From contig SNVD02012231.1 in assembly GCA_013180625.2 (NCBI GenBank), positions 1 to 64,000 of the forward strand: 64,000 nucleotides of DNA, in the 5' to 3' direction. The position numbers were made by a program, and so were the translations under genes. This DNA comes from Boswellia sacra (Eukaryota; Streptophyta; Magnoliopsida; Sapindales; Burseraceae). Position 1 is the first letter of the stretch, and each line of letters starts with the position of its first letter. This document shows, piece after piece, positions 11,557 to 64,000 of the stretch. The notes beneath the pieces are model-generated. The model saw nothing but the letters and a program-made list of their open reading frames with translations, was not told the DNA's origin and searched no databases.

Positions 11557-11664
11557 AAGGTAAAAAATTGGCGTGCAAAATTGTAAGTATTCTCTTTTCC
11601 CATTTCTATTTTTATTTTTTTTTGTGTATTCATCTTTTGCTCTCTTTTCTTCTCTCTTTCTTGC

Positions 11665-13402
11665 ATGAAAATTTGGTCACGAACATCTAGTGGTAGACTT
11701 GTTAGAAAAAAATCATCTTCCTTAGAAAACATGGCCGACAATCATGAGGAAATATTCACGGATGAAGGGGACAACCGTTCGCAACAAAATGATCAAAAAC
11801 AACGAAGAACCCTCAAAGACTACATGAATCCGGTAAGGACTAGTGCACCATCTTGTGTAGTTTCTCCTCCAGATTCAATCCATTTCAATTTCAAACCAAG
11901 TTTTGTTCAGACTCTACCCACTTTCATGCGCCTTTGGACATGGAGAAACCAATATTCCACTTGAAACTCTTGAAGAGGTATGTAGCTACTACACTGACCC
12001 AAATTGTAGCATAAAACACCATTAGATTAAAGCTTTTTTTCTTTTTCTTTAAAAGATAAAGCTAGAACATGGCTACAAAATTTGAGGTCGAATTCATTAG
12101 TTCATGGGATGGAGAGAAACAAACAATTTGAAAAACTTTTTCCTACCCAAGACCAGAATTCTCTTAAAAGACAAATTTCTGATTTCTCTCAAAAACAAGG
12201 GAAAACCCTTTACCAATGTTGGGATAGGTATAAGGAACTACTTAATACCTGTCCTCACCATGGGTTTGAAACTTGGAGAATAGTTGCACATTTCTATGAA
12301 GGGTTAACACCTCACGATAGGCAACTAGTGGAATTAATGTGTAATGGAGAATTTAAAGAAAAAGACCTGAGGAAGCACTTGACTACATAGACTCCTTGAC
12401 AGAAAAGGCACAAAATTAGGACACTGCTGGCACCTAGAAGGTACCAGGCAAGGCCCCCCAACCTCGCCATCCAATAGAGGCATTTACAACCTTGAGAGAA
12501 GACCATGGACCTTCAAAGCCAAATTGCTCCCTCGCTAGAAAGGCGAGGCTTAGAAGATGAAAAGAGTGGTCAATTGAAATCTATTCACGAAATGTCTGTA
12601 ACATGTGTGATGACAATGACCATTCTACTGATGATTGCCCAACTTTGCCTGCCTTTAGGGAATGTCTCCATGAAGAAGCCAATGCCTTAAACACTTTCAA
12701 AAGGCCAAATCACAATCCATATTCACAAACCTACAATCCTGGTTGGAGAAATCATCCAAAATTTAGCTGAAAAAATGATAATCATGCACAATCTTCACAA
12801 GTCCCTTTTCAAACACGACAAAATTTTCAAAATTCTCATGATCATGCATATGCTTCTCCTCTTAGGAATGACCTTGAAGAGACATTGCATTCATCATTAC
12901 AAAGCAAGAGACTTTCAATAGTCAAACTGCTCAAACATTAGCAAATTTGTCAGAAACTCTTGCAAAATTTGCATTTACATTTAGCATCCAAGAGAAGGGA
13001 AAATTTCCTTCTCAAACATTGCAAAACCCCAAAGATCAATCTAACTCAAATGCAGGGAATTCATATAACCATTATTTTGACCAAGCCAAGTCAGTCATGA
13101 CCCTTCGCAATGGTAAGGTTGTTGAAAAACACATTCCTAATCCTTGTGAGAAAGAAGAAAAATCGATCTCTAAAGGACAGGAAGAGGCTGCCAACCCAAC
13201 ACCTAGCGAAGAAGAAACCAAATCCTCATCTGTGCCTCCATTTCCTCAAGCATTAGCTACACCAAAGAAGCCAACTCACAATTCTGAAATCTTTAAAATT
13301 TTCAAACAGGTAAAGGTCAACATTCCCTTGCTTGATGTGATCAAACAGGTACCTTCTTATGCAAAGTTTTTGAAAGACTTGTGCACTGTGAAAGAAAACT
13401 AA
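11665..13402 (+). pseudogene. element D gag
   Basis: The start ATG at 11665 (MKIWSRTSSGR) is shared with element C. The N-terminal region is a Gln/Asp-rich tail, then a retrotransposon-gag domain broken after residue ~85 and continued at 12082-12390 (LYQCWDRYKELLNTCPHHG, HFYEGLTPHDRQLVELMC). The zinc knuckle at about 12600-12645 reads CNMCDDNDHSTDDC, CX2CX4HX4C with all ligands present but in a shifted frame. The last part, 12947-13402, carries the MTLRNGK motif and an acidic Pro/Ser-rich linker into protease. At least four frame breaks are present. Confidence 0.9.
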
Positions 13403-14505
13403 ATGTGAAAAAGAAGGCCTTTCTAGCCGAGCAAGTAAGTGCTATTCTTCAAAATAATAATACAGTGAAATATAAGGATCCAGGTTGTCCTACAATTTCA
13501 TGTGTTATTGGAGACCATAAATTTGAACAAGCTTTACTTGATCTTGGTGCTAGTGTGAATTTGCTTCCATACTCAGTTTTTCAAAAACTCAATCTAGGTG
13601 AGTTAAAAACAACTTCTGTCACTCTTTTGCTTGCTGATAGATCAATTAAAGTACCAAGAGGAATAGTAGAAGATGTGTTAGTTCAAGTCGATAAATTCAT
13701 TTACCCAGTGGATTTTATCGTCTTGGATACACAACCAGTGGAAGTAAGCAATTCAATTCCTGTTATTTTAGGGCGTCCATTTCTAGCTACCTCTAATGCT
13801 TTGATTAATTACAGGAATGGAGTCATGAAGCTATCATTTGGGAACATGACATTGGAACTTAATGTTTTTAATATGTGCAAACAACCAAATGAAGAAGAAG
13901 ATGAAATTGACGAGGCCAATGTAATTGAATCTATTGTAGAAGATCACATCCAAAAAGGGAGTTCTTCTGACCCTTTGGAAACTTGTCTAGTGAATTCATT
14001 AGAATCACGCATGGAACTAGAGTCTGATCTTTCTGATATATGTTCTTTATTGGATTGTGCACAGGTGATGGAAAAAGGCTCCAAATCAAGATTTGAAGAA
14101 TTGGGGCAAATGAATGAAAGCAAGGAAGATGAAGCTCCCAAGTTAGAATTGAAGCCCTTACCTGAAGGACTGAAATATGCATATCTTGAGGAGAATCAGA
14201 CATATCCAGAATTGAAGCCCTTACCTGAAGGACTGAAATATGCATATCTTGGGGAGAATCAGACATATCCAGTGGTAATTTCTTCATCCATCACATGCGA
14301 GCAACAAGGTAAGTTGATAGAAGTGCTTAAAAGGCATAAAAATGCAATTGGGTGGACGTTAAAAGATATAAAAGGCATTAACCCTTTAATTTGCACACAT
14401 AGAATACATTTAGAGGAAAATGCCAAAACATCTCAACAACCTCAAAGGAGATTAAATCAACACATGAAAGAGGTCATTAGGGCTGAAGTTCTCAAACTAC
14501 TTTGA
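13381..14505 (+). pseudogene. element D protease and RT N-terminus
   Basis: The retropepsin-like active site is LLDLGASVNLLPY, with DLGA as the catalytic triplet region. The second strand motif is PVILGRPFLATSNA, typical of plant gypsy protease. An acidic spacer follows, then KLIEVLKRHKNAIGWTLKDI and RRLNQHMKEVIRAEVLKLL, which lead into reverse transcriptase. A stop directly follows KLL. A 63-bp direct duplication inside this frame (14146-14271) doubles the ELKPLPEGLKYAY block relative to element C and keeps the frame. Confidence 0.92.
14146..14271 (+). repeat. 63-bp in-frame tandem duplication in D pol
   Basis: Two copies start at 14146 and 14209, each encoding ELKPLPEGLKYAY plus eight more residues. 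They differ by one base (GAG vs GGG). Element C has one copy, so the duplication is specific to D. Confidence 0.95.
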
Positions 14506-15937
14506 TTGGGAATTATCTATCCTATTTCTGATAGTAGTGGGTAAGCCCGACACAATGTACCTAAGAAATCGGCAATTACAGAAGTTTAAAAATAAAAGGC
14601 TGGAATATTGCCACTCGTGTCCCATCTAGTTGGAGGATGTGCATTGATTATAGAAAATTAAATGCTGTCACTAGAAAAGACCATTTTCCCTTACCTTTCC
14701 TTGACCAAATTCTTGAAAGAGTAGCATGAAACCCCTACTCTGCTTTCTCGATGGATACTCAGGCTATTATCAAATTCCCATTGCACTTGAAGACCAAGAA
14801 AAAACAACATTCACGTGCCTCTTCGGCACTTTTGCATTTAGGAGAATGCCTTTGGACTTTGTAATGCCCCAGCCACTTTTCAAAGATGCATGTTAAGCAT
14901 TTTCAGTGACATGGTTGAGCATTGTTTAGAAGTTTTCATGGATGATTTAACTGTCTTTGGAAACTCTTTTGATAATTGTCTTGAAAATTTAGAAAAAGTC
15001 CTAAAAAGGTGTGTAGAAAAAAGGTCTTATTTTGAATTGGAAAAAATGTCATTATATGGTCACTTCAGGAATTGTCTTAGGTCATGTGGTGTCTTCTAAA
15101 GGAATTGAAGTGGACAAAGCAAAAGTGGAATTAATTTCCCATTTGCCTCCACCAAAAACAGTTAAAGAGGTTCGTTCATTCTTAGGGCATGCTGGATTTT
15201 ATAGGAGGTTCATAAGAAATTTCAGTGCTATATCTAAACCTCTTTGTAACCTCTTAATAAAAGATACTTCCTTTGAATGGACTCAAGAATGTCAAAATGC
15301 CGTTGATACACTAATTGGACTTTTAACAACTGCTCCAATTATGCAATCTCCTGATTGGTCCTTGCCTTTTGAATTGATGTGTGATGCAAGTGACTATGCC
15401 GTTGGTGCTGTCTTAGGACAAAGAAAAGAAGGTAAGCCTTATGTAATATACTATGCAAGTAGGACTTTAAATGATGCACAAATGAATTACACAACAACTG
15501 CGAAAGAACTACTTGCAGTAGTATTTGCATTGGACAAATTTCGATCTTATTTAATTGGTTCTCCAACAATTGTTTACACTGACCATGCAGCTGTGAGATA
15601 TTTAATGACTAAACAGGATGCAAAACCTAGATTGATACGGTGGATCTTATTGCTCCAAGAATTCAACATCACAATAAAGGATAAGAAAGGAGCCGAAAAT
15701 GTCATTGCTGATCATCTTTTAAGACTAACGACAGAGACATTAATTGAAACTTCACCTATCAATGATTCTTTTCCTGATGAATTTTTATTTTCCGTTGCTA
15801 CTGTACCTTGGTTTGCTAACATTGTAAATTTTCTTGCGACAGGGAAAATGCCACCTCATTGGAAAGCTCAAGACAAAAGAAAATTTTTAACCGAGATGAA
15901 AATTTTTTACTGGGATGACCCATATCTGTTCAAATAG
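14506..15937 (+). pseudogene. element D reverse transcriptase and RNase H
   Basis: RT is shattered between 14506 and 14890: stops and frameshifts cover the fingers and palm start. It is readable again at 14890 with the catalytic FMDDLTVFG box. A frameshift near 15050 leads into a long open frame to 15937 with KGIEVDKAKVELISHLP and FLGHAGFYRRFI, then RNase H with Asp in CDASD, Glu in AKELLAV, Asp in YTDHAA and the last Asp in NVIADHLLR. All four RNase H acidic residues are present. The frame ends in the start of integrase (HWKAQDKRKFL, FYWDDPYLFK) at a TAG. Confidence 0.9.
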
Positions 15938-17174
15938 TGGTCCAGACCAAATAATAGAAGATGCATCCCGACAATGAGGGCAAGTATGTCATTACTTTTT
16001 TCATTCTGAAGCATGTGGAGACATTTTTCCATCTAGAAAACAGTTTGCGAAGATCTACAATGTGGATTTTTATTGGCCCCCTTATTTTAACGATGCCAAT
16101 GCATTTGTTGAAAAAACGTGTGAAAATTGGTCAAAAATTGGGATCTATTCAAAAAGAAACATGATGCCCGTTGAATCCCATTCTTGTCGTTGAAATCTTT
16201 GACTGTTGGGGTATTGACTTTATGGGACCTTTTCCACCGTCATTTTGTTTTGTGTACATCCTTGTTGCAGTAGACTATGTTTCAAAATGGGTCGAGGCAA
16301 TTCCATGTCGAAACAATGATCACAAAACAGTTGTCAAATTCTTGAAAGAGAATATCTTGAGTAGATTTGGAATTCTTCGAACCATTATTGTGATGGGGGT
16401 ACACATTTTTGTAACAAACCATTTTAAACTTTAATGAAGAAATATGGAATAACCCATAAAATTTCTACACCTTATCACCCACAAACAAGTGGACAAGTTG
16501 AATTAGCTAATAGGGAGATAAAACAGATCTTAGAAAAAAACGGTTAACCCAAATCGTAAAGATTGGTCTTTAAGACTTAATGATGCACTTTGGCTTACCG
16601 AACTGCTTTCAAAACATCATTGGAAATGTCTCCTTATAGATTAGTTTATGGAAAACCTTGTCACTTGCCGGTGGAAATTGAACATAAAGCTTACTGGGCC
16701 ATTAAAACATTTAACACAACTTTGAATGATGCGTGCCAGATTTTTTACGGAAAAAAAACCTCCAACTGAGTGAACTTGAAAGAAATCAGGAATGAGTGCT
16801 TATGAAAATTCTAAAATCTCAAAGAAAAAATGAAGGTTTTTCCCTACAAATTTTTGTTAGAAATCTTTTGAACCTTCACAAAAGTTCTTTTGTATGATTC
16901 AAGGTTGCATTTATTTCCTGGTAAACTTCGGTCACGTTTGACTGGGCCTTTCATTGTTAAAAATGTTTTCCCTCATGGAGCAGTTGAAATTGAGAACCCA
17001 AAGAATGGTCAAGTGTTTAAAGTTAATGGACAACGGTTAAAACCATTCTTTGAAAATTTTGACCAAAATGAAGAGTCAATTGCTTTAGTCGATCCTTTTC
17101 AAAGATTGATTTTTCCCAGTCAAGTGGCGGATACGTACTCCGTGACTATTAAAGTCGGTTTTTCAGTTCCCTAA
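15938..17174 (+). pseudogene. element D integrase
   Basis: The HHCC domain (15961-16160) is frameshifted. The core frame 16171-16434 holds the first Asp ([11 protein letters not shown]) and [13 protein letters not shown] frameshift just before the second Asp turns DGGTHF into VMGVHIF. The Glu region ([17 protein letters not shown]) follows in another frame near 16480. The C-terminal domain at 16890-17174 ([27 protein letters not shown]) is open and ends at TAA. No single frame carries all three catalytic residues. Confidence 0.88.
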
Positions 17175-17223: not shown

Positions 17224-17914
17224 ATGGATACCATTCTCTCAAAATTGCACAAACATTTTCCCTCTCTTCCTCAAAATGATTTTCTTAAAATTTATAAAGC
17301 TCGTGCAGAAAGACTAAGGTTGTTGATGCGTAAGGGTATTCCTGCTGATTTAAGATGGTTAATTGAAGCCAAGGTTCGATTCTCTTGTAAGTTTTCAGAT
17401 AATCTTGTTTCCCATATGCCAGGTTTGGGAAAAAGCTCTTATGTCAAAAAGCGAAGAGCGAAAAGGTTACAAGTTTGTCCCAGATGTGCAAGATGGACTT
17501 GTAACCAGCGTTGCCGCTCCTTGGGATATTTGTCTAACAATCGATAGGTAACTACCGTCATCAATAATGGACTGAGTAACAGAGTCTTTGGATGATATCC
17601 ACGACTCTTGAGACGCATTCTTTGTGGACTTGGTTCAGCGTGAAATTTTTAATTTGTGGACCCAATTCCGAGATGAGCAGGAACGCTATAGTCTTGGGAA
17701 TCTGACTCAAAACGACCCTGTTTGCCAGTTTATAAGAAAACTGGATGGGAAGCATATCCCCAACTCATATAAGGTGTTTAAGCCGTTTCTGGACGTAAAA
17801 CCAGAGGAAGATGTGAGCCACAGTCACAACTACCTGTACATATGCATGCGTCCCATCATTTTTGAATTTTTATGCCTTATAGCTGTCATTTTTGAATTTG
17901 TATCTTTTGCTTGA
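17224..17914 (+). pseudogene. ORF-X in element D: Cys-rich basic protein of unknown function
   Basis: Not a family I recognise. The start at 17224 (MDTILSKLHKHFPSLPQND) is chosen because the C copy opens identically and the E copy aligns from the same codon. Order: N-terminal helix, LRWLIEAKVRFS, PGLGKSSY, a very basic run (KKRRAKRL), then C-x2-C-x4-C-x3-C (CPRCARWTCNQRC), a possible zinc or nucleic-acid-binding knuckle. After a frameshift near 17550 it continues with LWTQFRDEQERYSLGNL, DPVCQFIRKLDGKHIP and DVKPEEDVSHSHNYLYI. It sits 50 bp after integrase, where Athila elements usually have an env-like frame, but no membrane or signal segment is seen. Homologous copies lie in C and E. Confidence 0.75.
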
Positions 17915-18090: not shown

Positions 18091-18742
18091 AGGGAAGGAA
18101 CTTCAAAACGTCGAATCCAAAGGATATGTGTATTCTGCGGATCTCGACCGGGTAAAAGTGAGGAGTTTGTAGAAGTAGCAAACTATCTTGGTAGGCTACT
18201 GGCTGAAAGAAAGATTCATGTGGTTATGGGGGAGGTAGCCTCGGGTTAATGGGTTGCGTATCAACAGCTACACATGTAGGAGGCAGTCAAGTGTTAGGAG
18301 TTATTCCTAAAGCTTTGGCTGTAGAAAGCATTGTTGAAAAAACGGTTGGGAAGGAGTTACAGGTCTCCTCTATGCATGAACGCATGGCACATATGCTCAT
18401 CAATTCAGATGCCTTTATTGCTTTACCAGGTGGCTTTGGCACTCTTGAAGAAAATTTTTCAAATTGCCTCTTGGGCCCAACTGAATCTCCATCAAAAACC
18501 CATAGGTTTGTTGAATGTCAAAAATTTCTTTGATCCTATGATAAGTTTTGTTGATGCAGCTGTGGACAGAATTTTATCCCTCATTGTCAGCGAGAAAGAT
18601 CCTTATTTCTGCCACTTCTGCTGGTGAGCTACTTAACAAATTACACGAAGTTGAGTATGAACCTGACCCAGCTAGTACTCAAATTAATTGGGCAGGAGGG
18701 CAAAACAAAAAGTGCAAATTGGATCTGAATCTCCGGTTGTAA
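18091..18742 (+). pseudogene. LOG-family (cytokinin riboside 5'-monophosphate phosphoribohydrolase) cargo, element D
   Basis: LOG enzymes cut the ribose-phosphate from cytokinin nucleotides to give active free-base cytokinin. Here RICVFCGSRPGKSEEF starts the Rossmann-like fold, followed by [35 protein letters not shown] and [11 protein letters not shown] (the PGGxGTxxE signature). The C-terminus is a basic patch plus LDLNLRL, then TAA. Defects: the start codon reads AGG where C has ATG; a one-base loss near 18225 breaks HVVYGGG; two more frame changes follow PGGFGTLEE. About 217 codons in total, normal for LOG. It lies 180 bp after ORF-X. Confidence 0.92.
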
Positions 18743-20087: not shown

Positions 20088-21451
20088 TGATGAACATTTA
20101 AATATGCATGTTTAATAAGAGTTTAGTTCATCATATTGCATTAATAGTGTCATTAAATTCTTCAACTTAAGCATATTTTGTAGCATTTGCATCTTTGGAA
20201 TTAATTCCTCTTAATTTTGGTTTTGTTACAGGTTCGGTAAAATGGGCATAACTCTCTATTTATAGATCAGAATGGTGCAATTTTTAATGTTTTGGAAAGC
20301 TGATTTAATTGTCTACAAGATTGCATTTCACAAGCGTCATCAAATTCGGGCTCTTAGTGGACCAAAATTGGGCTTGAAATGAACCCATCTACAGTCTCTG
20401 CCCAGTCTGACCAGGCCTCAGTATTTGGACCGTATCTCTCAAAATACGTATCCAAATTGTGCAAATCAATATGTTCTAGAAAGCTTAGAGAAATATCTAC
20501 AACTTTCATGAAGACATGTGATTAAAATTCACAACATTTCGATGTCAAAATTGATGGTCAAGTCGGTGCCTAATGATCCCAATTGTCAAAGATATTTACA
20601 ACTAATATTTGACAATTATGCCCTTGTAATTTGACAAGTTTGCCCCTGGATGTATCTATAAATAGAGGTGCATTGTGACCTATTAGGGCATCTTGGCCTT
20701 GGCTGGAACATTTTGGCTTTGGCTAGGATCTTGTATTGTGTTTTGTGTGTTTATGTTATTAATGAATTTCCTTTTTCTTGCATTTTATTTTCTTTCTATT
20801 ATAATGTTCTTCTATTTCTCTTTTGCTAAGGTGAAAGGGTGAAACCCTTGATATGAGAATAAGGATTCTCTAACCCTTAATATGTGCTTAATAATCTTAT
20901 CTTATAATGTTTATTCAATATGATTTATATTTAATTTCTTAATCAATCTTGACACCACTCGTAAAGTGGAGGTCTTGATCCATTGTCGACAATCCTTGGC
21001 ACATCAAATGCTTGGATCCTTTCTAGATGATTTATGGTTCTTCCTTACCGACACGAATCTAGTTAGGAACCTTGATTTGGTGTAGACATATGGTGATTGG
21101 CACATTGGATGCTTGAACCCATTTACAAGAAGTGGTATAAATATTGGTAACGAAACAAATATAATTCATATAACTAAAATGGGTTAATTATCCTTATTTG
21201 AAATATCAAGGGCGGATCCCCTAACCTTAACTTTCATTATTATTGTGTTAATTCCTTTTACTTGCGCATTTTAATTATTCTCATCCATTATTGATATTAT
21301 CTTGTCATATCTTTGAATCATCATATCGTATTTGCTTAGCTTATAATTTGAGCGCTAAAATCCCCTTCCTCGTGGATCGACCCCGGTCTCACCGGGTTTT
21401 ATTACTTCGACACTCCTATACTTGGGAGACAATCCTTTTTCGGATGTGTCA
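20088..21451 (+). repeat. element D 3' LTR, 1364 bp
   Basis: TGATGAAC...GGATGTGTCA, collinear with 10167-11533 with scattered substitutions and one-base indels (about six differences in the first 130 bp, fewer later). The TATA box is at 20657-20664. It is followed by the target duplication CTTGC at 21452-21456. Confidence 0.95.
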
Positions 21452-32064: not shown

Positions 32065-33319
32065 TGACACATCCGAAAAAGGATTGTCTCCCAAGTATAG
32101 GAGTGTCGAAGTAATAAAACCCGGTGAGACCGGGGTCGATCCACGAGGAAGGGAATTTAAGCGTTACAAATTATAAGTTAAGCAAATATGATATGAATAA
32201 TTGAAAGAAATGATAAGATAATCTCAACAAATATGTAAAGATGGTAGGTGGTATTACCGACCATTCAAATATAAAACAAAAGGCAAAAGGAGGTAAAACC
32301 ATCCATGGAAATAGGTGGTATAACCAACCATAGTAAATTAAAGAACAATTTCATAAGGTGGTAGAACCTACCATAGTAAATAAAATAAAAAGTTCATAAA
32401 CAATAGAATAATTAAAATACAAGAGGAATTAACACAATAACAATGAAGGCTAAGGTTAGGGGATCCGCCCTTGATATTCAAATAAGGATAATTAACCCAT
32501 TTTAGTTATATGAATTATATTTGTTTCATTACCAATATTTATACCACTTCTTGTAAATGGTTTCAAGCATCCAATGTGCCAATCATCATATGTCTACAAC
32601 AAATCAAGGTTCCTAACTAGATTCGTGTCGGTAAGGAAGAACCATACATCATCTAGAAAGGATCCAAGCATTTGATGTGCCAAGGATTGTCGACAATGGA
32701 TCAAGACCTCCACTTTACGAGTGGTGTCAAGATTGATTAAGAAATTAAATATAAATCATATTGAATAAACATTATAAGATTAAGATTATTAAGCACATAT
32801 TAAGGTTTAGAGAATCCTTATTCTCATATCAAGGGTTTCACCCTTTCACCTTAGCAAAAGAGAAATTAGAAGAACATTATAATAGAAAGAAAATAAAATG
32901 CAAGAAAAAGGAAATTCATTAATAACATAAACACACAAAACACAATACAAGATCCTAGCCAAAGCCAAAATGTTCCAGCCAAGGCCAAGATGCCCTAATG
33001 GGTCACAAGGCACCTCTATTTATAGATACATCCAGGGGCAAACTTGTCCACTAAGAGCCCGAATTTGATGATTCTTGTGAAATGCAATCTTGTAGACAAT
33101 TAAATCAGCTTTCCAAAACATTAAGAATTGCACCATTCTGATCTATAAATAGAGAGTTATGCCCATTTTACCGAACCTGTAACAAAACCAAAATTAAGAG
33201 AAATTAATTCCAAAGATGCAAATGCTACAAATATGCTTAAGTTGAGGAATTTAATGACACTATTAATGCAATATGATGAACTAAACTCTTATTAAACATG
33301 CATATTTAAGTGTTCATCA
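32065..33319 (-). repeat. element C 3' LTR, 1255 bp, internally deleted
   Basis: Plus-strand ends are TGACACATCCG and GTGTTCATCA. Compared with the 5' LTR it lacks 274 bp of U3 upstream of the TATA box (minus strand, 33024-33017). The junction near 33047 shares only GTC between the two sides. It contains the C-specific block of about 160 bp (about 32243-32412). Confidence 0.93.
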
Positions 33320-34731: not shown

Positions 34732-35364
34732 TTACAAAATGAGATTCAGATCCAATTTGCACTTTTTGTTTTGCCCTCCTGCCAATTAATTTGAGTACTA
34801 GCTGGGTCAGGTTCTACCACTTCTTGTAATTTGTCAAGTAGCTCACCAGTAGAAGTGATAAATAGGATCTTTCTCGCTATGAGGGATCAATTTCTGTTCC
34901 ACAGCTGCATCCAAAACTTATCAAGGATCAAGAATTTTTTGTACATTCCACAACATATGGGTTTGTGAATGGAGATTCAGTTTGCCCAAGAGCAATTTGA
35001 AAAATTTCTTCAGAGTGCCAAGCCACCTAGTAAGCAATACATGCATCGAATGAATGAGCATATGTGCCATGCGTTCATGCATAGAGGAGACCTGTAACTC
35101 CTTCCCAAGCGTTTTTCCAACAATACTTTCTACAGCCAAAGCTTTAGGAATAACTCCTAAAACTTGAGTACCCCCTACATGTGCAGCTGTTGACACACAA
35201 CCCATTAACCCGAGGCTACCTCCCCCATACACCACATGAATCTTTCTTTCAGCCAGTAGCCTACCAAGATAATTCGCTACTTCTACGAACTCTTCACTTT
35301 TACCTGGTCGAGATCCACAGAATACACATATCCTTTGGATTCGACGTTTTGAAGTTCCCTCCAT
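34732..35364 (-). pseudogene. LOG-family cargo gene, element C
   Basis: The start ATG at 35364 is intact (MEGTSKRRIQRICVFCGSR). The first 110 codons are open: the phosphate-binding [23 protein letters not shown] and [10 protein letters not shown] are all readable. Just after, the region that should encode the catalytic PGGxGTxxE is frameshifted (the frame reads RWLGTLKKF), and later parts run in other frames. The C-terminus KKCKLDLNLIL and a TAA at 34732-34734 match D and E. Normal LOG length. It lies about 210 bp after ORF-X, as in D. The sequence ATAAATACC precedes the start by about 50 bp. Confidence 0.92.
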
Positions 35365-35575: not shown

Positions 35576-36226
35576 TTAAAATTCAAAAATGATGGCACGC
35601 ATGCATATGTACAGGTAGTTGTGACTGTGGCTCACATCTTCCTCTGGTTTTACGTCCAGAAACAGCTTAACCACCTTCTATGAGTTGGGGATATGCTTCC
35701 CATCCAGTTTTCTTATAAACTGGCAAACAGGATCGTTTTGAGTCGATTCCCAAGACTATAGCGTTCCTGCTCATCTCGGAATTGTGTCCACAAAATAAAA
35801 ATTTCACGCTGCACAAGTCCACAAGAATTGCGTCTCAAGAGTCGTTCGGATATCATCCAAAGACTCCTTACTCAGTCCATTCTTGATGAACTGTAGTTTA
35901 TTCTCTCGATTGTTAGACAAATATCCCAAGGAGCGGCAACGCTGGTTACAAGTCCATCTTGCACATCTGGGACAAACTTGTAACCTTTTCGCTCTTCGCT
36001 TTTTGGCATAAGAGCTTTTTCCTAAACCTGGCATATGGGAAACAAGATTATCTGAAAACTCACAAGAGAATCGAACCTTGGCTTCAATTAACCATCTTAA
36101 ATCAGCAGGAATACCCTTACGCATCAACAACCTTAGTCTTTCTGCACGAGCTTTATAAATTTTAAGCAAATCATTTTGAGAAAGAGAGGGAAAATGTTTG
36201 TGCAATTTAGAGAGAATGGTATCCAT
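35576..36226 (-). pseudogene. ORF-X in element C
   Basis: Near-copy of the D frame: MDTILSKLHKHFPSLSQND at the start, LRWLIEAKVRFSCEF, PGLGKSSYAKKRRAKRLQVC, then CPRCARWTCNQRC. It is open for 140 codons, frameshifted near 35810 (after LETQFLW), and continues with the DPVCQFIRKL-type part to a stop at 35576. The first frame can be extended 13 codons upstream (MHLFSFLL...), but the shared ATG at 36226 is preferred because E aligns only from there. It follows integrase by about 110 bp. Confidence 0.75.
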
Positions 36227-36339
36227 GTGAAGAAAATGAGAGAGAAGAAAAGAAAATAGATGCAAGCAACAGTTTTTAGGGAACTGAAAAACCGACTTTG
36301 ATAGTCACGGAGTACCGTATCCGCCACTTGACCGGGAAA

Positions 36340-41841: not shown

Positions 41842-43370
41842 TGACACATCCGAAAAAGGATTGTCTCCCAAGTATAGGAGTGTCGAAGTAATAAAACCCG
41901 GTGAGACCGGGGTCGATCCACGAGGAAGGGAATTTAAGCGTTAAAAATTATAAGCTAAACAAATGTGATATGGATGATTCAAAGAGGTGACATGATAATA
42001 TCAACAAGTATGTTAGATGGTAGGCGGTATTACCGACCATTCAAATATAAAACAAAAAGCAAGAGGAGGTAAAACCATCCATGGAAATAGGTGGTATAAC
42101 CAACCATAGTAAATTAAAGAACAATTTCATAAGGTGGTAGAACCTACCATAGTAAATAAAATAAAAAGTTCATAAACAATAGAATAATTAAAATACAAGA
42201 GGAATTAACACAATAACAATGAAGGCTAAGGTTAGGGGATCCGCCCTTGATATTTCAAATAAGGATAATTAACCCATTTTAGTTATATGAATTATATTTG
42301 TTTCATCACCAATATTTATACCACTTCTTGTAAATGGGTTCAAACATCCAATGTGCCGATCATCATATGTCTACAACAAATCAAGGTTCCTAACTAGATT
42401 CGTGTCGGTAAGGAAGAACCATTCATCATCTAGAAAGGATCCAAGCATTTGATGTGCCAAGGATTGTCGACAATGGATCAAGACCTCCACTTTACGAGTG
42501 GTGTCAAGATTGATTAAGAAATTAAATATAAATCATATTGAATATAAATTATAAGATTAAGATTATTAAGCACATATTAAGGGTTAGAGAATCCTTATTC
42601 TCATATCAAGGGTTTCACCCTTTCACCTTAGCAAAAGAGAAATTAGAAGAACATTATAATAGAAAGAAAATAAAGTACAAGAAAAAGGAAATTCATTAAT
42701 AACATAAACACACAAAACACAATACAAGATCCTAGCCAAAGCCAAAATGTTCCAGCCAAGGCCAAGATGATCTAATGGGTCACAAGGCACCTCTATTTAT
42801 AGATACATCCAGGGGCAAACTTGTCAAATTACAAGGGCATAATTGTCAAATATTAGTTGTAAATATCTTTGACAATTGGGATCATTAGGCACCGACTTTG
42901 ACCATCAATTTTGACATCGAAATGTTGTGAATTTTAATCACATGTCTTCATGAAAGTTGTAGATATTTCTCTCAGCTTTCTAGAACATATTGATTTGCAC
43001 AATTTGGATACGTATTTTGAGAGATACGGTTCAAATACTGAGGCCTGGTCAGACTGGGCCGAGACTGTAGATGGGTTCACTTCAAGCCCAATTTTGGTCC
43101 ACTAAGAGCCCGAATTTGATGATGCTTGTGAAATGCAATCTTGTAGATAATTAAATCAGATTTCCAAAACAATAAGAATTGCACCATTCTGATCTATAAA
43201 TAGAGAGTTATGCCCATTTTACCGAACCTGTAACAAAACCAAAATTAAGAGAAATTAATTCCATATATGCAAATGCTACAAATATGCTTAAGTTGAGGAA
43301 TTTAATGACACTATTAATGCAATATGATGAACTAAACTCTTATTAAACATGCATATTTAAGTGTTCATCA
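41842..43370 (-). repeat. element C 5' LTR, 1529 bp
   Basis: TGACACATCCG...GTTCATCA on plus. The TATA box is on minus at 42801-42794. About 160 bp longer than the D LTRs because of a block at about 42027-42192 with three imperfect palindromes of the form GGTGGTA..ACCTACC, downstream of the promoter and so in the RNA leader. Confidence 0.93.
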
Positions 43371-55038: not shown

Positions 55039-56475
55039 TGATGCGTTCGAAACTAGCAAGCATACTAGTCGCACAAGTAATAAAGTGATAAGTAAGATAT
55101 CGTTCCCACGAGGATTGATTCTAATTGAATTTGTTATTTCCAGCAACAATTAACTAAATGGGGGGTTTTGTTGGTTGATTAACTAGATGAAAAACTGAAT
55201 ACGACGGTAATTAATGAATAACACAATGCAAGTAAAGAATAACAAAACAGAAAGTTAATTGGAGTGAAAACTCAATGAGAGAAACCTGGTTAAGGGATCC
55301 TTCTCTGCCACAAGATATGGATTTGCTAATTAATCATAGAATTGTCATCCAATTACACCATTGAAATTATCAACCGTAGATAACAACAAGCTCTGTTATC
55401 CCAATCTTTCCTTACTTTGTTGTTAAATAAAATAGGCTCTTTATTTAATCTCTATCCATTAAACAACCTAGAACAAGCTCTCTAAATTTAATTCAATGGA
55501 TGCATTACGATAAGAAAGATAGGTTGATCTAAGCAATAAACACACAAGCTCGGATTATTTAACTTAGGTTGTATTCTCCAATTGCAATCTCTGATCACAA
55601 TTTTGCTACTAAGGATTAGAAATTCAAGACAATTACGGATCAAGATTTCTAGTCTAGCAATAGACAATATCCAGATTATATTCAGTTGGCCACCCAAATA
55701 CAATCCAGCAAGCAATCATAAGCATTAACATGGGAAAATACAAGCAACTTCAATTAGAGAATTGGATAACAACTTCTTGCACAATCAACTTACAAAAACC
55801 ATATCAGGGGCTTTGAAATCACCCTCAACCAATTCAGATTCAGTTACACATGTTTAAGAACGTGGTAAATACAATACAACATGGAGACATTCCAGAAAAT
55901 GAAAGGGAAGGGAAAAACTTAGCAAATTTGATGTAATTCTCTTTGGATTGTAGTTCTTCCTCTTTCCAAGCTTCCTTTCTCCTTCAAGAACTCCAAGAGA
56001 TGAAAGAATTCCAGAGCTGCAGCCTCCACCACGTTCTCCCCTCTTCAAGTTATGAAAATAAAACCCTAAAATGTGTTTAAATACTCTGCTACAGTAACGT
56101 GCTACAGTGTCCCGTATTATACATGCTACAGTGATGTGTGGAATTACATTTCTACACTTCTCACACTGTTTTGATTACAACTTTCGGTACACTGAATGGA
56201 TTCATAAACCGTAAATTTCTCCAAAAAGTAGACTTCGAGAGCTTTTCAACGGTATATGATATGTCATCGGGTTCATTGTATATCAATACAATTAAATCCG
56301 AGAAGATGGTTGACTAGCAGAGGTGAAAATGAAGGGTTTTACTCCATTTTTGTGCAAGTTGCTCCAAAACTCCTACAAACATCAAAACCACACAAAAACA
56401 TAAAAATACCAAGGAATATAGCAAAGAAACATGGACGAATTGATATGAAAATGATATATAAATAGACACTTATCA
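55039..56475 (-). repeat. element E 3' LTR, 1437 bp
   Basis: Plus-strand ends are TGATGCGTTCG and GACACTTATCA. It matches 62861-64000 almost base for base, apart from a handful of substitutions, small indels and the adapter artefact. It is unrelated in sequence to the D/C LTRs except for the border bases. Confidence 0.95.
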
Positions 56476-56490
56476 AATTCCCCCACACTT
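56476..56490 (-). other. element E polypurine tract
   Basis: The minus strand reads AAGTGTGGGGGAATT directly before the 3' LTR. Confidence 0.88.
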
Positions 56491-58457
56491 AGACTTTGCT
56501 AGTCCTCGAGCAACTACGACAATATGAAATAAAACTAAACCGAAACAGAATCAACAAAAAATTAAAACACACAAATGCTTCATCTTGCAAATAGGCCTCA
56601 AAACTTGTACTTAATTATAACCCAAGGAAAACTTCAAAATAATGCACTTGATCAAGAATTTTATCTCAAAGATTAGTTTCGCTTCATTTCAATTCCTCAA
56701 GTGTGTGTGTGTAGAGCCATTCTCACCTAATCACTTGTAACCCGGATGAGTTTATGCATAAAAATGAATCATATTTAATATTGAAGATGTGTGTATAAAT
56801 GAACTCCATAGGCCTGCTTTTCAAGTCACTCTCCACTAATGTAGACATGCACAACACCAAGGATCAAGTAGGACTTTATTAAGTTTGTAACGTTTGGCTT
56901 GGGTGAAGGTATGATAAAGGATAATAATTTGGCTCAAATCACCCACAAACACATAAATCATTCAAGACTATGTAGAGCTCAACCCTATAACACAACTTCA
57001 TTTCAATTCACCAGGTTACTCCCCCAAACTTATTTAGAACACTCAATCTTTTTTTTTTTTTTTGCAGAAAACAAAAGAAAACTACACCCCCACACTTTGT
57101 TGTTTCATTCTTTTTAAGAACACTTAAGGGTATAGATCTCTTATTCTTCTTCTTTTGTTCTCTTTTTTTTCTTTTTTTTTTCTTTTTTTTTTACTAGACT
57201 TCCCCTCCCCCACACTTAAATAACACATTGTCCTCAATGTGTAAGTACGTGGACGATAAGTACAGATTGGCTTTTTTTTCTTTTTTTCTTTTTTTTTTTA
57301 CAAACACAATAGAACTCACTTGCATTGCTCATGACACATCCCAACCTCCTCTAACTTCCCAAAACCAGAACATAGCTCAGAATTTAATTGTGAATGATCT
57401 ACATGCTCATAGGTAAGGGATAAACTGTTTGGAACAAATTCATTTGAGGTTAGGAAATCTTTTAGTGAGTTAACAAAGAAAAAGGCTTACAGAGGCTCAA
57501 AGGGATAACTAGGGATCAATTTCAGTCAAGGTTGGCTATTAAGGCTCAAACGGTCCAAAGATGGCCTAAATCATTTCCCCAATGTTGCACAGTCTAGGAT
57601 TTCGCCTCGAGTGACCATCAAACAAGTTCTAGAATTCATTGAAATCTGAAGAAACACTTAAATTACATAAACTTTCTCTAAGTAAACAAATAACTCAGTG
57701 ATAATGGCTCGGTGCTCAATTTTGTGCAAGGACTCAAAGGTAAAGCAAAAACTAATTAACATTTCAAGCACACAGATCCATGCATCATTTATCATTTTCC
57801 AAGAGTTATTCTTAATTCAATCATTGCCTTATCATTGGCCCATAAAATGCAAGAGAAGAGGTACGTGGCATTGTTACACCTGAGTCAAGATTGTATATTT
57901 CAACAATCCTTAGGACCAGTAGCCCGCAGACTTAAGGTTTCCAGCCTATATACCTTTATTATAAAGAACAAAACAAGAAACAAGACACTTCAAACAACAT
58001 GAAATAAACAAACTACAGATTTATTCGAGAGAATGCGTTTCAAGGGTTAAAGAAAACCCCATATTCTGCCATTCTCAACTTTTTTCCACAATTTTTTTTA
58101 ATCGAAAGTGATAAAGACAAAAAACACATAACAACTTCAAAATTACATAAAACTAAACTTACTCATAAAATAACAAAGTCCAACAAGCCAGCAAACAAAA
58201 ACAAGTCAGTTAGAATGGGTCTAAAAAGTTAGAAGTTAGCCTCCTTATTCAGTCATTATGGATTAAAGAGATCCAAAATGCGTTTCAAGAGGACTTACAC
58301 TTTTTAAGCCACCACTCTAAAAACCAAGATTAGAAAATATTACCTGGGACAAAAGAAACAACCTGAAAAAACTCAAAAAGAAATAACATAAAAAAAAACT
58401 CAAATAAACACAATAAAAAGAAAGCAAACGAAAACAAAGCAAACCAGCTGATATAGA
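56491..58457 (-). other. element E 3' noncoding region
   Basis: Nearly 2 kb without a supported frame. It has poly-T runs (57050, 57165-57190, 57270-57300) and ACATTGTCCTCAATGTG at about 57222-57239 beside a pyrimidine tract (a second purine tract on minus). At 58020-58330 it has GCGTTTCAAG...GGAC motifs like those flanking the same region in C and D. The shared motifs show common descent of this region although the LTRs have diverged beyond recognition. Confidence 0.75.
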
Positions 58458-59107
58458 TTACAGATGGAGCGTTAAATCCAGTTTACGCCTCTTATTGCCT
58501 TCTCCAAACCAATCAATCCGAGCTGTTGTTGGATCAGGCGAATAGACGAATTCTTGTAGTTTGTCAATTAACTCCCCTGCCGTTGAAGCTGTAACAAGGA
58601 TTTGCCTCGCTGATGGTGAGATAAAATTTTTTTCTACAGCTTGATCAAGAAAAAACAACAAACCATCAAAAAAGTTATTGACATTTAACAAACCAATGGG
58701 TTTTTTATGGATGTTTAGCTGTGCCCAAGATGTGATTTGAAATATCTCCTCTAATGTACCATAACCACCGGGCAAAGCTATAAATGCATCAGATTTAATG
58801 ATCATATGTGCAATACGCTCATGCATACTAGAAACCTGTAACTCTTCCCCCATGGTGTTGACTACGATATCTCGTACAGCTAATGGTTTAGGGATAATGC
58901 CGAGAACTTTGCTTCCTCCTAAGGATGCAGCTGTCGACACACACCCCATTAACCCAACACTACCCCCTCCATAAATCAAATGAATACCCCTCGCAGCTAA
59001 TGTCCTACCAAGATCAAGAGCTGCTGTTGTAAACTCTCCATCTTTACCAATTGCGATCCACAAAATACGCATATATTTTGGAGTCGCCGAATTGGTGTTT
59101 TCTCCAT
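58458..59107 (-). pseudogene. LOG-family cargo gene, element E (one frameshift)
   Basis: The start ATG at 59107 begins MEKTPIRRLQNICVFCGS; one missing base right after CGS (near 59055) shifts the frame, and the rest to the TAA at 58458 is uninterrupted (about 200 codons). Seen in order: [78 protein letters not shown]. The Arg of MHER and the PGGYGTLEE loop, both needed in LOG enzymes, are intact. The tail NKRRKLDLTLHL is a basic patch plus LxLxL. The 650-bp span fits a family member of about 216 residues. A TATATATCC sequence lies about 110 bp upstream. Confidence 0.94.
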
Positions 59108-59652: not shown

Positions 59653-60282
59653 TCAAATATACAAGTAGTTGTAATTGTGGCTCACATCTTCCTCTGGTTT
59701 TACGTCCAGTAACGGCTGAAACGCCTTCTATGAGTCGGGGATTTGCTTCCCATCCAGTTTCCTTATAAACTGGCAAACAGGGTCGTTTTTAGTCAGATTC
59801 CCTAGACTATAACACTGCAATTCATCACGAAATTGTGTCCATAGATTAAGCAATTCACGCTGAACATATCCACAAGAATGTGACTCGAGAGTTAACAAAA
59901 CATTATCCAGCGACTCATTACTCAAACCATTCTTAATAAATGAAAGTTTATCTTCTCTATTCCTGTACGCAAAACCTAATGAATGACAAGTCTGGTTACA
60001 ATTCCATCTAGCACATTTATAACATACTTGTAACCGCTTCGCTCTTCGCCTCTTGGCGTAGTAGCTCTTTCCTAGACCAGGCATGTATTTTGCGAGATTA
60101 ATGTCAGGTTCACCTGACAATCTCACCTTGGCTTCGATAAGCCATCGGATATTAGCAGGCACATTTAAGAGCATCAACGCCCAAAGTCTAGTCATCCGTA
60201 CTTTATAAATTTTGAACACAGCATTTTGAGGAAGTGAAGGGAAATATTTACGAAGGTTCGACAGAAATATATCGGCATCTAT
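59653..60282 (-). pseudogene. ORF-X in element E
   Basis: 210 codons. The start codon position holds ATA (60282), where D and C have ATG, followed by DADIFLSNLRKYFPSLPQN. Then NIRWLIEAKVRLSGEPDINL, MPGLGKSYYAKRRRAKRL, CYKCARWNCNQTC (all four Cys spaced as in D and C), LSFIKNGLSNESLDNVLLTL, LLNLWTQFRDELQCYSLGNL, DPVCQFIRKLDGKQIP. One in-frame stop follows (TAG where D has TAT), and the frame ends DVKPEEDVSHNYNYLYI, TGA. Otherwise unbroken. Residue conservation across E and D/C at divergent DNA suggests past protein-level selection. Confidence 0.78.
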
Positions 60283-60647: not shown

Positions 60648-61733
60648 TTATTTTTCTTTTTTTTTTAAAACATTGGGTTGCCTCCCAATAAGCGCTTGGT
60701 TTAACGTCCTCAGCCTGACGTTGGTTCCATCATGGCAGAGGTCCAATCTCCACTGTGCTTCTCTAGTGGGCTTGGATCCTTTTTCCAACAAGAATTGGTG
60801 CATGCATATGGCTGGGCCTTGGATGTTAGCAATCGTCCACCCAATAGCTGTTTTGTGGTCTGTAAGTATTCGGACGAGTTTCTCTTCTTGTATTCGTGCA
60901 AGGCCCATTTCCATTGTAATTGGCAAAGTATCATTCTCACCTAAGAATCCATGATTCAAATGATCTGGCAGTGACTTAAGCTCCAAGGTATTGGCTTTCG
61001 TCACAGAAGGAAGAAGTTTCTCATTAGATAAAGTAAATTGTATGTACGAAACATCATACCTATTTGTGGTTATTGCTATGGTCTCATTTAAGCTCGCTAT
61101 AGCTTCCTCCATTTCTTTGGATACTTGAATCAAAATTCCTGACTCATTGGAATTTTCTGTCCCTATATGCTCACTAATAGCTACATCCAATCCATTCTTG
61201 CGAGTTAACTCAAAATATTGTTGTGACAAAGAATCAACAATGTCAACTGCAAAAACAGAATGTAAGTTACTAGAGTACCTCATTGCCTCAAAAATATTGA
61301 AACATATCACCTTGCCATCAAACTCTATGATGAGAGTGCAATCATGAACATCAATCTTGGTTCTAACAGTTTTCGAGAATGGTCTCCCTAAAAGAATCGG
61401 AGTTGGATTAGGAGATGTCTCATTCTCTATTTTAAGGACATAGAAGTCTGCTGGGAAAACCAATTGATTCACCTGCACAAGCACATCTTCCACAACTCTT
61501 TTGGGATATGCATTAAAATGATAAGCAAGTTGAATGGTAATATCAGTTTTCGCAAAAGGTCCAAGATTTAAAGAAGCATAAATAAATATGGCATTGACAT
61601 TATATAAGATTGCTTCTAAATCTAAAATACTCTTCAAACTTGGTTTTCCATGGTGCATGAATGGTGTCATACCTGGATTATTGCATTTTCTGAGTAATTT
61701 TTCTTGGTAGTACAGCCTGAAACATTTTCCCAC
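60648..61733 (-). pseudogene. element E protease and truncated RT leader
   Basis: 361 codons open. The protease active-site region is changed (LDLEAILYNVNA where D reads LDLGASVNLLPY), while VVEDVLVQVNQLVFPADFYV and PILLGRPFSKTVRTKIDV are typical. It then reads EKLVRILTDHKTAIGWTIAN and PTREAQWRLDL, the last residues before RT. The frame passes directly into the conserved untranslated post-pol motif (AAGCGCTTATTGGGAGGCAA), so all of RT, RNase H and integrase is missing. Loss of the catalytic Gly and neighbours makes the protease doubtful. Confidence 0.88.
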
Positions 61734-62766
61734 ACTTCACTTTCACATTCCCTTTTAACTTTCTCAGGATTGACTGGTGCATAACTCCTTGAGACATTTT
61801 GTATAACAAGGTACTTTGCTCTGTAGATCCAGAAGTTTGGGGGGGGGGTATCATTTTACCTTCGATTTTTGTGAAAGTATCCAGGATTTCTTGTTCTTGT
61901 TCCTCCTTCTTCATTTCGCGCAATCTACTAGGAAAAAGTGGAGGAGAAACATATGCAGGAATGGGAGTTATAGGATTTACCTGAGAAGTCAGTGTTTTGT
62001 TCATGGTGGAAGTGGTGTCATCTCCTTCATCAGTTTGTGATTTCTTTGGTAGGACATCTAATTGCTCTCCATTTTGCAAAGTTTTCGCACAAGAATTCTC
62101 TCTTGGATTGATCACCATTTGACAAGATAATTCTTCTGAGCCTTGGCCCTCGAATTTGCTCATGCTAGTAGCCAGTTGTTCCATTTGATTTACCAGGTTT
62201 TGGATACTTGCCCCAGTTTCCTGCTGGAATTGCATTGTGTTAGTGGCAAGTGCATTAACAATATCCTCGAGTGACATACCTGAATTTTCTGAAGCTAGTT
62301 GTGGTGCTAGTTGTGGCATTGGTGGTGGTTGCATTTGAAATGGTTGCTGCACTCTAGGTTGATTGAAACCTTGTGGCCGATTTGGTATCACATTTGGAGT
62401 GATTGGTTGATGATCCCAGTAACTGAAATTATGTTGATCTTCCCATCCAGCATTGTAAGTGCTAGAGAAAGGATCATACCATTGCCTCGTTTGTCCTGGA
62501 AATCCAACCATGGCATTGGCTTGTTCGATATATTCCTCTTGTAAAGTTGGATACATGTCGATTGGATGCTCCATCGTAGAATATATCCCACATTCATAAG
62601 ATTTTTTCATATCTCCTACAGCCATGTTTGCCACAAGAGAGGTTAGCTCAGAAAGTTGTTGTTCAATGTTCGGAGTGCTTACCTCATTTACTCTCCATGG
62701 TACTTGTGGCTCAAATCTGCTACTGATTGATAGAAGTTTACTGCCATGTTGTCTAAACACAAACAA
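61678..62766 (-). pseudogene. element E gag, C-terminal part only
   Basis: 362 codons open. It starts at ATG 62766, but the first residues (SISSRFEPQVPWRVNEVSTP) match the middle of Athila gag. The knuckle reads CGIYSTMEHPIDMYP, a CCHC with two Cys changed to Tyr. Next come FSSTYNAGWEDQHNFSYWDH, a Pro/Gln-rich stretch, and LEDIVNALATNTMQFQQETG. The N-terminal particle-forming domain is absent. The frame overlaps the protease frame by about 55 bp with a frame change. Confidence 0.88.
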
Positions 62767-62836: not shown

Positions 62837-62853
62837 TCCCCGGCAACGGCGCC
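62837..62853 (-). other. element E primer binding site (tRNA-Asp)
   Basis: The minus strand reads TGGCGCCGTTGCCGGGG, an exact match to the tRNA-Asp complement, seven bases inside the LTR. Confidence 0.93.
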
Positions 62854-62860
62854 AAAAACT

Positions 62861-64000
62861 TGATGCGTTCGAAACTAGCAAGTATACTAGTCGCACAGTA
62901 ATAAAGTGATAAGTAAGATATCGTTCCCACGAGGATTGATTCTAATTGAATTTGTTATTTCCAGCAACAATTAACTAAATGGGGGGTTTTGTTGGTTGAT
63001 TAACTAGATGAAAAACTGAATACGACAGTAATTAATGAATAACACAATGCAAGTAAAGAATAACAAAACAGAAAGTTGATTGGAGTGAAAACTCAATGAG
63101 AGAAACCTGGTTAAGGGATCCTTCTCTGCCACAAGATATGGATTTGCTAATTAATCATAGAATTGTCATCCAATTACACCATTGAAATTATCAACCGTAG
63201 ATAACAACAAGCTCTGTTATCCAATCTTTCCTTACTTTGTCGTTAAATAAAACAGGCTCTTTATTTAATCTCTATCCATTAAACAACCTAGAACAAGCTC
63301 TCTAAATTTAATTCAATGGATGCATTACGATAAGAAAGATAGGTTGATCTAAGCAATAACACACAAGCTCGGATTATTTAACTTAGGTTGTATTCTCCAA
63401 TTGCAATCTCTGATCACAATTTTGCTACTAATGATTAGAAGTTCAAGACAATTACGGATCAAGATTTCTAGTCTAGCAATAAATCACAACCAGATTATAT
63501 TCAGTTGGTCACTCAAATACAATCAGCAAGCAATCATAAGCATTAAATATGGGAGAATACAAGCAACTTCAATTAGAGAATTGGATAACAAGTCCTTACA
63601 CAATCCACTTACAAAAACCATATCAGGGGCTTTGAAATCACCCTCAACCAATTCAGATTTAGTTACACATGTTTAAGAACGTGGTAAATACAATACAACA
63701 TGGAGAAATTCCAGAAAATGAAAGGGAAGGGAAAAACTTAGCAAATTTGATGTAATTCTCTTTGGATTGTAGTTCTTCCTCTTTCCAAGCTTCCTTTCTC
63801 CTTCAAGAACTCCAAGAAATGAAAGAATTCCAGAGCTGCAGCCTCCACCACCTGTCTCTTATACACATCTAGATGTGTATAAGAGACAGGTTTTAATACT
63901 CTGCTACAGTAACGTGCTACAGTGTCCCGTATTATACATGCTACAGTGATGTGTGGAATTACATTCTACACTTCTCACACTGTTTTGATTACAACTTTCA
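62861..64000 (-). repeat. element E 5' LTR, truncated by window end
   Basis: 1140 bp seen of about 1437. It differs from 55039-56475 at few positions, for example one base near 62902 and a small change near 63484. It contains the sequencing-adapter artefact at 63852-63889. Confidence 0.95.
63852..63889. other. Nextera/Tn5 mosaic-end junction adapter (artefact)
   Basis: CTGTCTCTTATACACATCT followed at once by its exact reverse complement, 38 bp in all. This is the 19-bp Tn5 mosaic end in both orientations, the known junction adapter of Illumina Nextera mate-pair libraries. In the partner LTR (56034-56080) the same place holds about 42 bp of ordinary sequence. This is not plant DNA. Confidence 0.98.

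Follow-up and report, generated by a model that had tools for sequence, protein, structure and literature searches.

The DNA under study is a stretch of 64,000 nucleotides from Boswellia sacra (GenBank assembly GCA_013180625.2, contig SNVD02012231.1, positions 1 to 64,000, forward strand). We refer to this whole stretch as the window; coordinates are window positions unless a contig position is stated. The window carries three LTR retrotransposons (D, C and E), which we take to be Athila-like on the basis of an earlier note on this DNA and of features typical of that lineage. Each contains a gene derived from LOG (LONELY GUY), preceded by a second gene, ORF-X, that encodes a Carla_C4/Viral_NABP protein (hereafter NABP). 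The features of the three elements are as follows (RT, reverse transcriptase).

10167..11533, forward strand: D 5' LTR, 96.6% identical to the 3' LTR
11641-13228, forward strand: D gag (tblastn)
13528-14457, forward strand: D protease region (tblastn)
14538-15021, forward strand: D RT (tblastn)
15032-15934, forward strand: D RNase H (tblastn; Pfam 2.1e-37)
15872-17063, forward strand: D integrase (tblastn)
17224..17767, forward strand: D NABP gene, one frameshift
18094..18724, forward strand: D LOG-derived gene, frameshifted (tblastn)
20088..21451, forward strand: D 3' LTR
32065..33319, reverse strand: C 3' LTR, 96.9-97.8% identical to pieces of 41842-43370
34735..35364, reverse strand: C LOG-derived gene, open over 34921-35364, then broken (frameshifted)
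35681..36226, reverse strand: C NABP gene (ORF 35804-36265; Viral_NABP E=1.8e-7)
37571-36387, reverse strand: C integrase (tblastn)
38399-37509, reverse strand: C RNase H (tblastn)
38917-38399, reverse strand: C RT (Pfam match)
39814-38978, reverse strand: C protease region (tblastn)
41746-40140, reverse strand: C gag (Pfam match)
41842..43370, reverse strand: C 5' LTR
55039..56778, reverse strand: E 3' LTR, 95.3% and 98.3% identical to contig positions 62861-64591 in two overlapping pieces
58458..59107, reverse strand: E LOG-derived gene, open frame 58458-59072, ending NKRRKLDLTLHL-stop
59728..60273, reverse strand: E NABP gene, ORF-X (listed ORF 59728-60219; Viral_NABP E=4.3e-8, Carla_C4 E=1.2e-5)
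60648..61733, reverse strand: E protease-region ORF, 361 aa, aligning with the first part of the C and D pol frame
61678..62766, reverse strand: E ORF of 362 aa in gag position, presumed gag from that position
62846..62860, reverse strand: E TGGCGCC..., directly inside the 5' LTR, which we take to be a candidate primer-binding site
62861..64000, reverse strand: E 5' LTR, running past the window end to contig position 64591

In line with the earlier note, tblastn, ORF and Pfam evidence places LOG-related sequence at the same position in all three elements: on the sense strand and 3' of ORF-X. Two further claims of the note stand in part. Firstly, a location after the integrase or its remains applies to D and C, which share an integrase-NABP-LOG order with extra sense ORFs between pol and the 3' LTR, but not to E, in which no integrase is detected (tblastn, 1e-6). 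Secondly, the LOG cargo is present in each element but not intact: frameshifts interrupt the LOG copies of D and C (as they do the D coding span, 11641..17063), and the N-terminus of the E copy is altered. The E LOG reads through as an ORF of 204 aa (Pfam PF03641, E=3.5e-38); most sampled copies use another frame for the first ~20 residues, where E has 'PKYMRILWIAIG' in place of the usual 'ICVFCGSQFG' (first strand 'ICVFCGS'). The altered frame is common to a subgroup of E-type LOGs (L001-L006, L010, L011, L014, L015 and L023), and thus copies carrying it seem to have gone on multiplying.

The coding content of E sets it apart from D and C. Besides the integrase, tblastn with the C and D proteins (1e-6) gives no match for RT or RNase H, which rules out E as a pol-bearing element. 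Only the gag-position, protease-region, ORF-X and LOG frames are seen; the first two have no Pfam match, and ORF-X and then LOG follow ~0.4 kb after the protease-region ORF. The same gag-prot-NABP-LOG arrangement occurs on five other contigs (C3725, C6153, C770, C5338 and C4341), and the gag-position ORF is also present in the other E-type copies read. Among loci L031-L040, no RT, RNase H or integrase is found (tblastn, 1e-6), except RT and RNase H in L039, which lie outside the E-type genes of that locus (contig positions 360038-361121). The E type, with LTRs delimited for some copies, is thus a non-autonomous LTR retrotransposon. Two of its copies, L037 and L038 (G000:C5338:1-16000), adjoin one another and are 91% identical over 5.4 kb. 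The LTRs of E and those of D and C show no mutual match (blastn, 1e-10, pieces >150 bases), as the earlier note had stated. E itself seems to have inserted into another gypsy element, because the RT and RNase H of the latter (53834-55036, forward strand) stop directly beside the E LTR, which starts at 55039. At a substitution rate of 1.3e-8, LTR identities of 95-98% would make the insertions of E, D and the copies on C3725 and C770 about 0.7 to 1.9 million years old.

LOG-bearing elements are not confined to the window. A search of the 639-Mb genome with the E LOG gave at least 150 scored copies among 14,284 first-look candidates, the two figures on which our statement of copy number is based. 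The 150 listed copies are 92-100% identical to the E LOG, and 19 of these 150 rows contain an internal stop. With at least 150 scored copies in the same genome, the occurrence of LOG in these elements is not a chance association.

The earlier note named ORF-X without identifying it and did not mention the end of the LOG protein; the former turns out to be a viral-type partner protein, and the latter carries an LxLxL tail (discussed below). ORF-X, which precedes LOG and follows pol or the site where pol would be, matches Carla_C4/Viral_NABP above the Pfam cut-offs in E and C. Among 50 aligned NABP proteins, Viral_NABP is matched by 40 and Carla_C4 by 39 (E<=1e-3), with the match spanning a basic patch and a Cys motif; in the E protein, likeness to the viral profiles is limited to ~65 residues. 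Named homologues among the best 120 of 138 hits come from Xanthoceras, Acer, Populus, Rhamnella, Orobanche, Striga and Citrus, and no virus is among them, although most hits are unnamed; some homologue clusters hold dozens of members. Two relatives, P0229 (Populus) and P0238 (Citrus), are without the Cys motif, owing to a deletion, and have no Pfam match. No PDB sequence is matched up to E=1, and the NABP structure model (pLDDT 65, pTM 0.28) is too poor for fold comparison.

How regularly the two genes occur together was assessed from two independent seeds. In 30 LOG-seeded loci, NABP adjoins LOG in 28 (absent from L006, and from L015, where the contig ends). Conversely, LOG is found in 28 of 30 NABP-seeded loci, the exceptions being L044 and L046 (the latter at a contig end), both of which have integrase before NABP and no LOG match. 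Since L047 and L063 are overlapping loci of a single contig, the latter sample corresponds to 27 of 29 separate places with the pair; these two loci (G000:C769, ~11.1-11.8 kb) contain two NABP matches 0.6 kb apart, seemingly within one element. In the sampled loci of the Boswellia sacra genome, NABP and LOG thus almost always occur together.

What lies upstream of the pair is more variable. In the 30 NABP-seeded loci, NABP is preceded by integrase in 23, by a gag tail in six (L045, L049, L054, L059, L062 and L066) and by neither in one (L053). A gag tail followed by NABP, with no integrase between them, points to a second type, gag-NABP-LOG, besides the E type. Hence, two element types that lack integrase before NABP—gag-prot-NABP-LOG and gag-NABP-LOG—keep the pair. 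Of the D-like loci in this sample, 28 match LOG; six of these have an open LOG frame of at least 195 aa, and three of the six (L054, L059 and L066) belong to the gag-NABP-LOG type. Gene models of other plants show the same adjacency: one from Rhamnella fuses NABP to the C-terminal end of an integrase (111 aa at 74% identity), one from Orobanche fuses NABP to LOG, and the Rhamnella models P0072 (LOG) and P0179 (NABP) bear consecutive names.

The origin of the element LOGs was addressed with trees that include host LOGs. The 'element-type' label rests on search rank for 120 proteins, with genomic context available for the copies of this genome and a handful of gene models. In a maximum-likelihood tree, 49 element-type rows form one clade (support 99/92). 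In a second tree, built with the tails removed, with three of this genome's own host LOGs included and without two long-branch rows, 48 element-type rows again form one clade (100/95). The host LOGs, conifer and monocot sequences included, form another clade, and the element-type clade is placed outside them; as faster evolution may exaggerate this outside position, we leave the capture undated. Within the element-type clade, two basal rows, P0046 and P0095, may be host genes or may represent the most ancestral element type. One gene model, P0001 (Xanthoceras, 336 aa), reads as two tandem LOG domains without a C-terminal LxLxL. A search of viral contigs with the E LOG gave one stretch and no relative.

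These results bear on the proposal that the LOG sequences are host genes that happen to adjoin elements, or several recent captures from such genes. Host LOGs are certainly present in this genome, where the host-type motif MHQRKAEM occurs at 13 places. However, the element-type LOGs are a single clade apart from the tested host LOGs, including the three of this genome, on which ground we reject three separate recent captures. In addition, each of the four host LOG loci looked at is split into exons, whereas the frames of the element LOGs are uninterrupted, as expected for a captured spliced mRNA. We consider the host-gene explanation very improbable.

To measure constraint, LOG was scored in the NABP-seeded loci and NABP in the LOG-seeded loci, since this avoids choosing copies by the protein under test. 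Variants were counted as nonsynonymous (N), synonymous (S) or nonsense in 27 of 28 LOG alignments (30 NABP-seeded loci) and in 27 of 28 NABP alignments (30 LOG-seeded loci). For LOG, singletons comprise 139 N, 51 S and 12 nonsense variants (omega 0.85); variants common to at least two copies comprise 91 N, 60 S and 6 nonsense (omega 0.55), and those common to at least three copies 48 N, 47 S and 2 nonsense (omega 0.37; Fisher p=2e-4 against singletons). For nonsense variants of LOG the contrast is not significant (p=0.24). For NABP, singletons comprise 52 N, 37 S and 2 nonsense variants (omega 0.49), and variants common to at least two copies 8 N and 16 S (omega 0.23; Fisher p=0.04). Same-seed samples, which are biased by the choice of locus (the NABP-seeded loci were picked by profile score), were used as a control: LOG in LOG-seeded loci (30/30 rows) gives omega 0.46 for singletons, 0.15 for variants in at least two copies and 0.14 in at least three, while NABP in D-like NABP-seeded loci (30/30 rows) shows no constraint (0.77, 0.82 and 0.82, respectively; p=0.50 for the last).

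The divergence between element types gives a consistent result. Across 12 E-D pairs of open copies (NG86), dN/dS is 0.15-0.23 for LOG (dS 1.1-1.4) and 0.18-0.26 for NABP (dS 0.8-1.1); YN00 failed for many pairs of LOG copies, and between some closely related NABP copies dN/dS reaches 0.5-0.8. The synonymous distances agree with the earlier description of the E and D/C LOGs as clearly diverged. Judged by these substitution patterns, LOG is under purifying selection in the element lineage. A single clade, together with selection on variants common to several copies, supports the view of LOG as a conserved cargo at a fixed place, and that NABP and LOG constitute a conserved, selected module is, in our judgement, highly probable.

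The same counts may be set against a neutral passenger, i.e., a captured host mRNA that is merely copied along with a multiplying element. Captured gene fragments are common in plant elements, many of the present copies are broken (as the scarcity of open D-like frames illustrates), and singleton LOG variants are near neutral. Yet shared variants are constrained, E-D dN/dS is low, and the pair is retained in two types without integrase before NABP. These three observations disfavor a passenger gene, to which we give very little credence.

The module being conserved, attention turns to what the LOG protein might do. In structural work on LOGs (CgLOG numbering), R99 and E122 are assigned to catalysis, M96, K100 and E121 to adenine binding, and M96, H97, K100, E125 and W129 to prenyl binding, the residues of the prenyl site being identical in AtLOG3, OsLOG and CpLOG (PMC4979012). 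These positions were examined in non-redundant (<88% identity) subsets of 48 element-type and 25 host proteins, taken from 113 and 90 length-filtered sequences that were themselves drawn from the best 120 of 5525 (element-type) and best 120 of 7999 (host) hits. The PGGxGTxxE motif is well preserved in the 48 element-type proteins (P in 46, G in 47, G in 46, G in 48, T in 48 and E in 47), as are R99 (45), E122 (47), the phosphate-loop residue T119 (48) and W129 (47); 44 of the 48 retain both R99 and E122. The adenine/prenyl pocket is a different matter: K100 is replaced by I, M or L in 44/48 (K in four), and E125 by Q, H, G or N in 45/48 (E in three), whereas both are invariant in the 25 host LOGs. 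Copies of this genome (60 loci given) agree, with I or M at the Lys site and Q at the Glu-125 site in all 57 that are readable. The basal element-type rows P0046, P0095 and P0058 retain K and E; hence, the pocket change seemingly arose within the element lineage.

On these grounds, the earlier description of the cargo as a hormone-activating enzyme is doubtful: most proteins retain the catalytic residues, but the pocket is changed. An ordinary cytokinin-activating LOG would raise active cytokinin, promote meristem or dividing states and so favor germline spread. Such an activity would be compatible with the mostly retained catalytic Arg and Glu, phosphate loop and prenyl-site Trp, with the host-like pocket of the basal rows, with a strong match to Arabidopsis LOG3 (5.9e-59) and with the confident Rossmann-type fold of an element LOG model (P0003; pLDDT 84.5, pTM 0.81). 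Arabidopsis LOG3 (2A33) and LOG8 (1YDH) likewise share PGGxGTxxE and the catalytic Arg and Glu with the element LOGs, which nonetheless differ from plant LOG enzymes in having no introns, replaced K100 and E125 equivalents and an extra basic and LxLxL tail. Against cytokinin activation stands the loss of the pocket Lys and Glu from nearly all element-type proteins and from none of the host LOGs. Ala at the presumed K100 equivalent abolished the activity of a bacterial type-II LOG (PMC5379747), although that mutant carried Ala where the element LOGs have Ile, Met or Leu. For these reasons plain cytokinin activation by the element LOG is doubtful; the tail, moreover, points to a further, nuclear role. 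We regard the ordinary-enzyme explanation as quite unlikely, and consider a changed substrate, or the loss of plain cytokinin activation, to be somewhat probable.

Individual copies from this genome raise a further alternative. Among E-like copies the catalytic Arg is kept in 29/30 and the Glu in 30/30; among D-like copies, the figures are 23/27 and 20/27. In seven of the 27 D-like copies the catalytic Glu is Gly (L041, L047, L049, L056, L062, L064 and L065), and in four the Arg is His or Cys (L041 and L047 carry His). The Gly-bearing copies suggest a sub-lineage that may have spread with a dead enzyme, which speaks further against cytokinin activation. LOG could then be a weak or inactive dimeric scaffold that presents the basic patch and the EAR-like tail, its core being kept for folding and dimerization. 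The replacement of the pocket Lys and Glu and the conservation of the tail would suit such a scaffold, and the Gly common to 7/27 D-like copies favors it a little. However, the retention of Arg, Glu and the phosphate-loop Thr across the element-type proteins (45, 47 and 48 of 48, respectively) is more than a pure scaffold needs, and we see this explanation as possible but unlikely.

The C-terminal tail is the second feature that distinguishes the element LOGs. After a variable linker, the protein ends in a conserved island of basic residues followed by L-D-L-x-L-x-L-stop. LxLxL, an EAR-like motif, forms the very C-terminal end of 41/48 element-type proteins and of 0/25 host LOGs; in shuffled tails (2000 rounds) it occurs in a mean of 4.05 and a maximum of 11, versus the 41 observed. 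At least three K/R residues lie just before the tail end in 45/48. Three element-type LOGs (P0046, P0095 and P0099) have a basic tail and no LxLxL. In the P0003 model, the tail is disordered (residues 201-217, pLDDT <50). The element tail resembles the DLELRL motif of SUPERMAN, and a C-terminal LxLxL is shared with the secreted pathogen effector HaRxL21, in which it was shown to bind TOPLESS; ten other LxLxL effectors gave no TOPLESS binding, so the motif by itself is often insufficient (PMC7446885). In the element LOG, unlike in HaRxL21, the motif is known from sequence alone, and we consider the chances that the tail works by TOPLESS recruitment to be evenly balanced.

NABP also invites comparison with proteins of known effect. 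Carlavirus cysteine-rich proteins (CRPs) share with it the Carla_C4/Viral_NABP profile, the basic patch and the Cys motif; it differs from them in being carried by retrotransposons, and in the short extent of likeness (~65 residues) of the E protein. Carlavirus and mandarivirus CRPs are described as silencing suppressors, and p12 of CVB as a transcription factor that induces hyperplasia (PMC12172455).

We propose the following explanation. An Athila-like Ty3/gypsy clade would carry an accessory module of NABP followed by LOG, located downstream of pol, or of the site where pol would be, and upstream of the 3' LTR. LOG would have been captured as a spliced LOG mRNA and re-specialized into a nuclear effector whose tail recruits TOPLESS-type co-repressors. 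Its core may bind or hydrolyze a nucleotide other than the usual one, or cytokinin nucleotides with altered preference, while NABP may act as plant-virus CRPs do, by silencing suppression and/or transcriptional reprogramming. Together, the two proteins would create a host cell environment permissive for element expression and spread, much as retroviral accessory genes do. A selected two-gene module with a LOG re-specialized as a probably nuclear effector is the reading that we prefer and hold to be fairly probable, chiefly on account of the part observed directly; the whole accessory-effector mechanism as written is offered more tentatively, as rather less likely than not. Bolder still, and rather unlikely in our estimation, is the possibility that these are true accessory effectors: NABP together with a LOG whose pocket has been rebuilt for another nucleotide signal (e.g., not cytokinin but a nucleotide that is modified or acts in immunity), with TOPLESS hijacked, and maintained by selection even in elements without their own polymerase.

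Extra ORFs are common in plant LTR retrotransposons, and mostly of unknown use. Two Athila-like elements with similarity to LOGL4 were reportedly described by Steinbauerova et al. in 2011. The earlier note's statement that no such case had been described does not hold, as LOG in gypsy elements is already in print: a LOG-type YgdH domain is present in consensus sequences of LTR retrotransposons from two Citrus species and, once the filter of that study was switched off, from Populus trichocarpa (PMC9289625, citing Steinbauerova 2011). Those elements are like the present ones in having a LOG-family domain inside Ty3/gypsy; the relevant passages of PMC9289625 list domains and mention neither a partner gene nor a tail, a changed pocket or signs of selection. 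The matches listed here also include LOG and NABP entries from Populus and one NABP entry from Citrus. Phalaenopsis orchids provide a parallel, in that their gypsy elements carry an AlkB-type RNA demethylase with demonstrated activity (PMC9289625). As here, a gypsy lineage has a fixed extra enzyme ORF, thought in the orchid case to counter host control; the enzyme and lineage differ, and activity was demonstrated there, while here the case is built on sequences.

In the open-access literature searched, a LOG in an LTR retrotransposon with a cytokinin context was found in PMC9289625 only, and LONELY GUY/YgdH is absent from the main texts of PMC7264820, PMC11963269 and PMC6317226. No carlavirus-type nucleic acid binding protein in a retrotransposon was found in that literature, nor any mention of NABP as a partner, of the LxLxL tail, of the altered pocket or of the pair being kept without integrase.

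NABP and LOG are selected extra genes that are retained where the polymerase genes are absent, which suggests that this element family may use its two extra genes to manipulate the host. With its recognizable enzyme core, altered pocket, short linear motif and viral-type partner, this case makes the question of a host-manipulating effector directly testable. If the answer is affirmative, plant retrotransposons would have evolved accessory effectors of the kind that complex retroviruses have. There is also a consequence for annotation: some plant genes annotated as 'LOG', for instance the many Reevesia, Diplodiscus and Populus entries, may be element genes, and such genes may not activate cytokinin.

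Elsewhere in the window, ORFs on the reverse strand at 37-2867 resemble Ty1/copia pieces. Two repeat pairs were also observed: 5293-5902 and 21614-22223 (80% identity), and 44248-45375 and 47450-48593 (75% identity).
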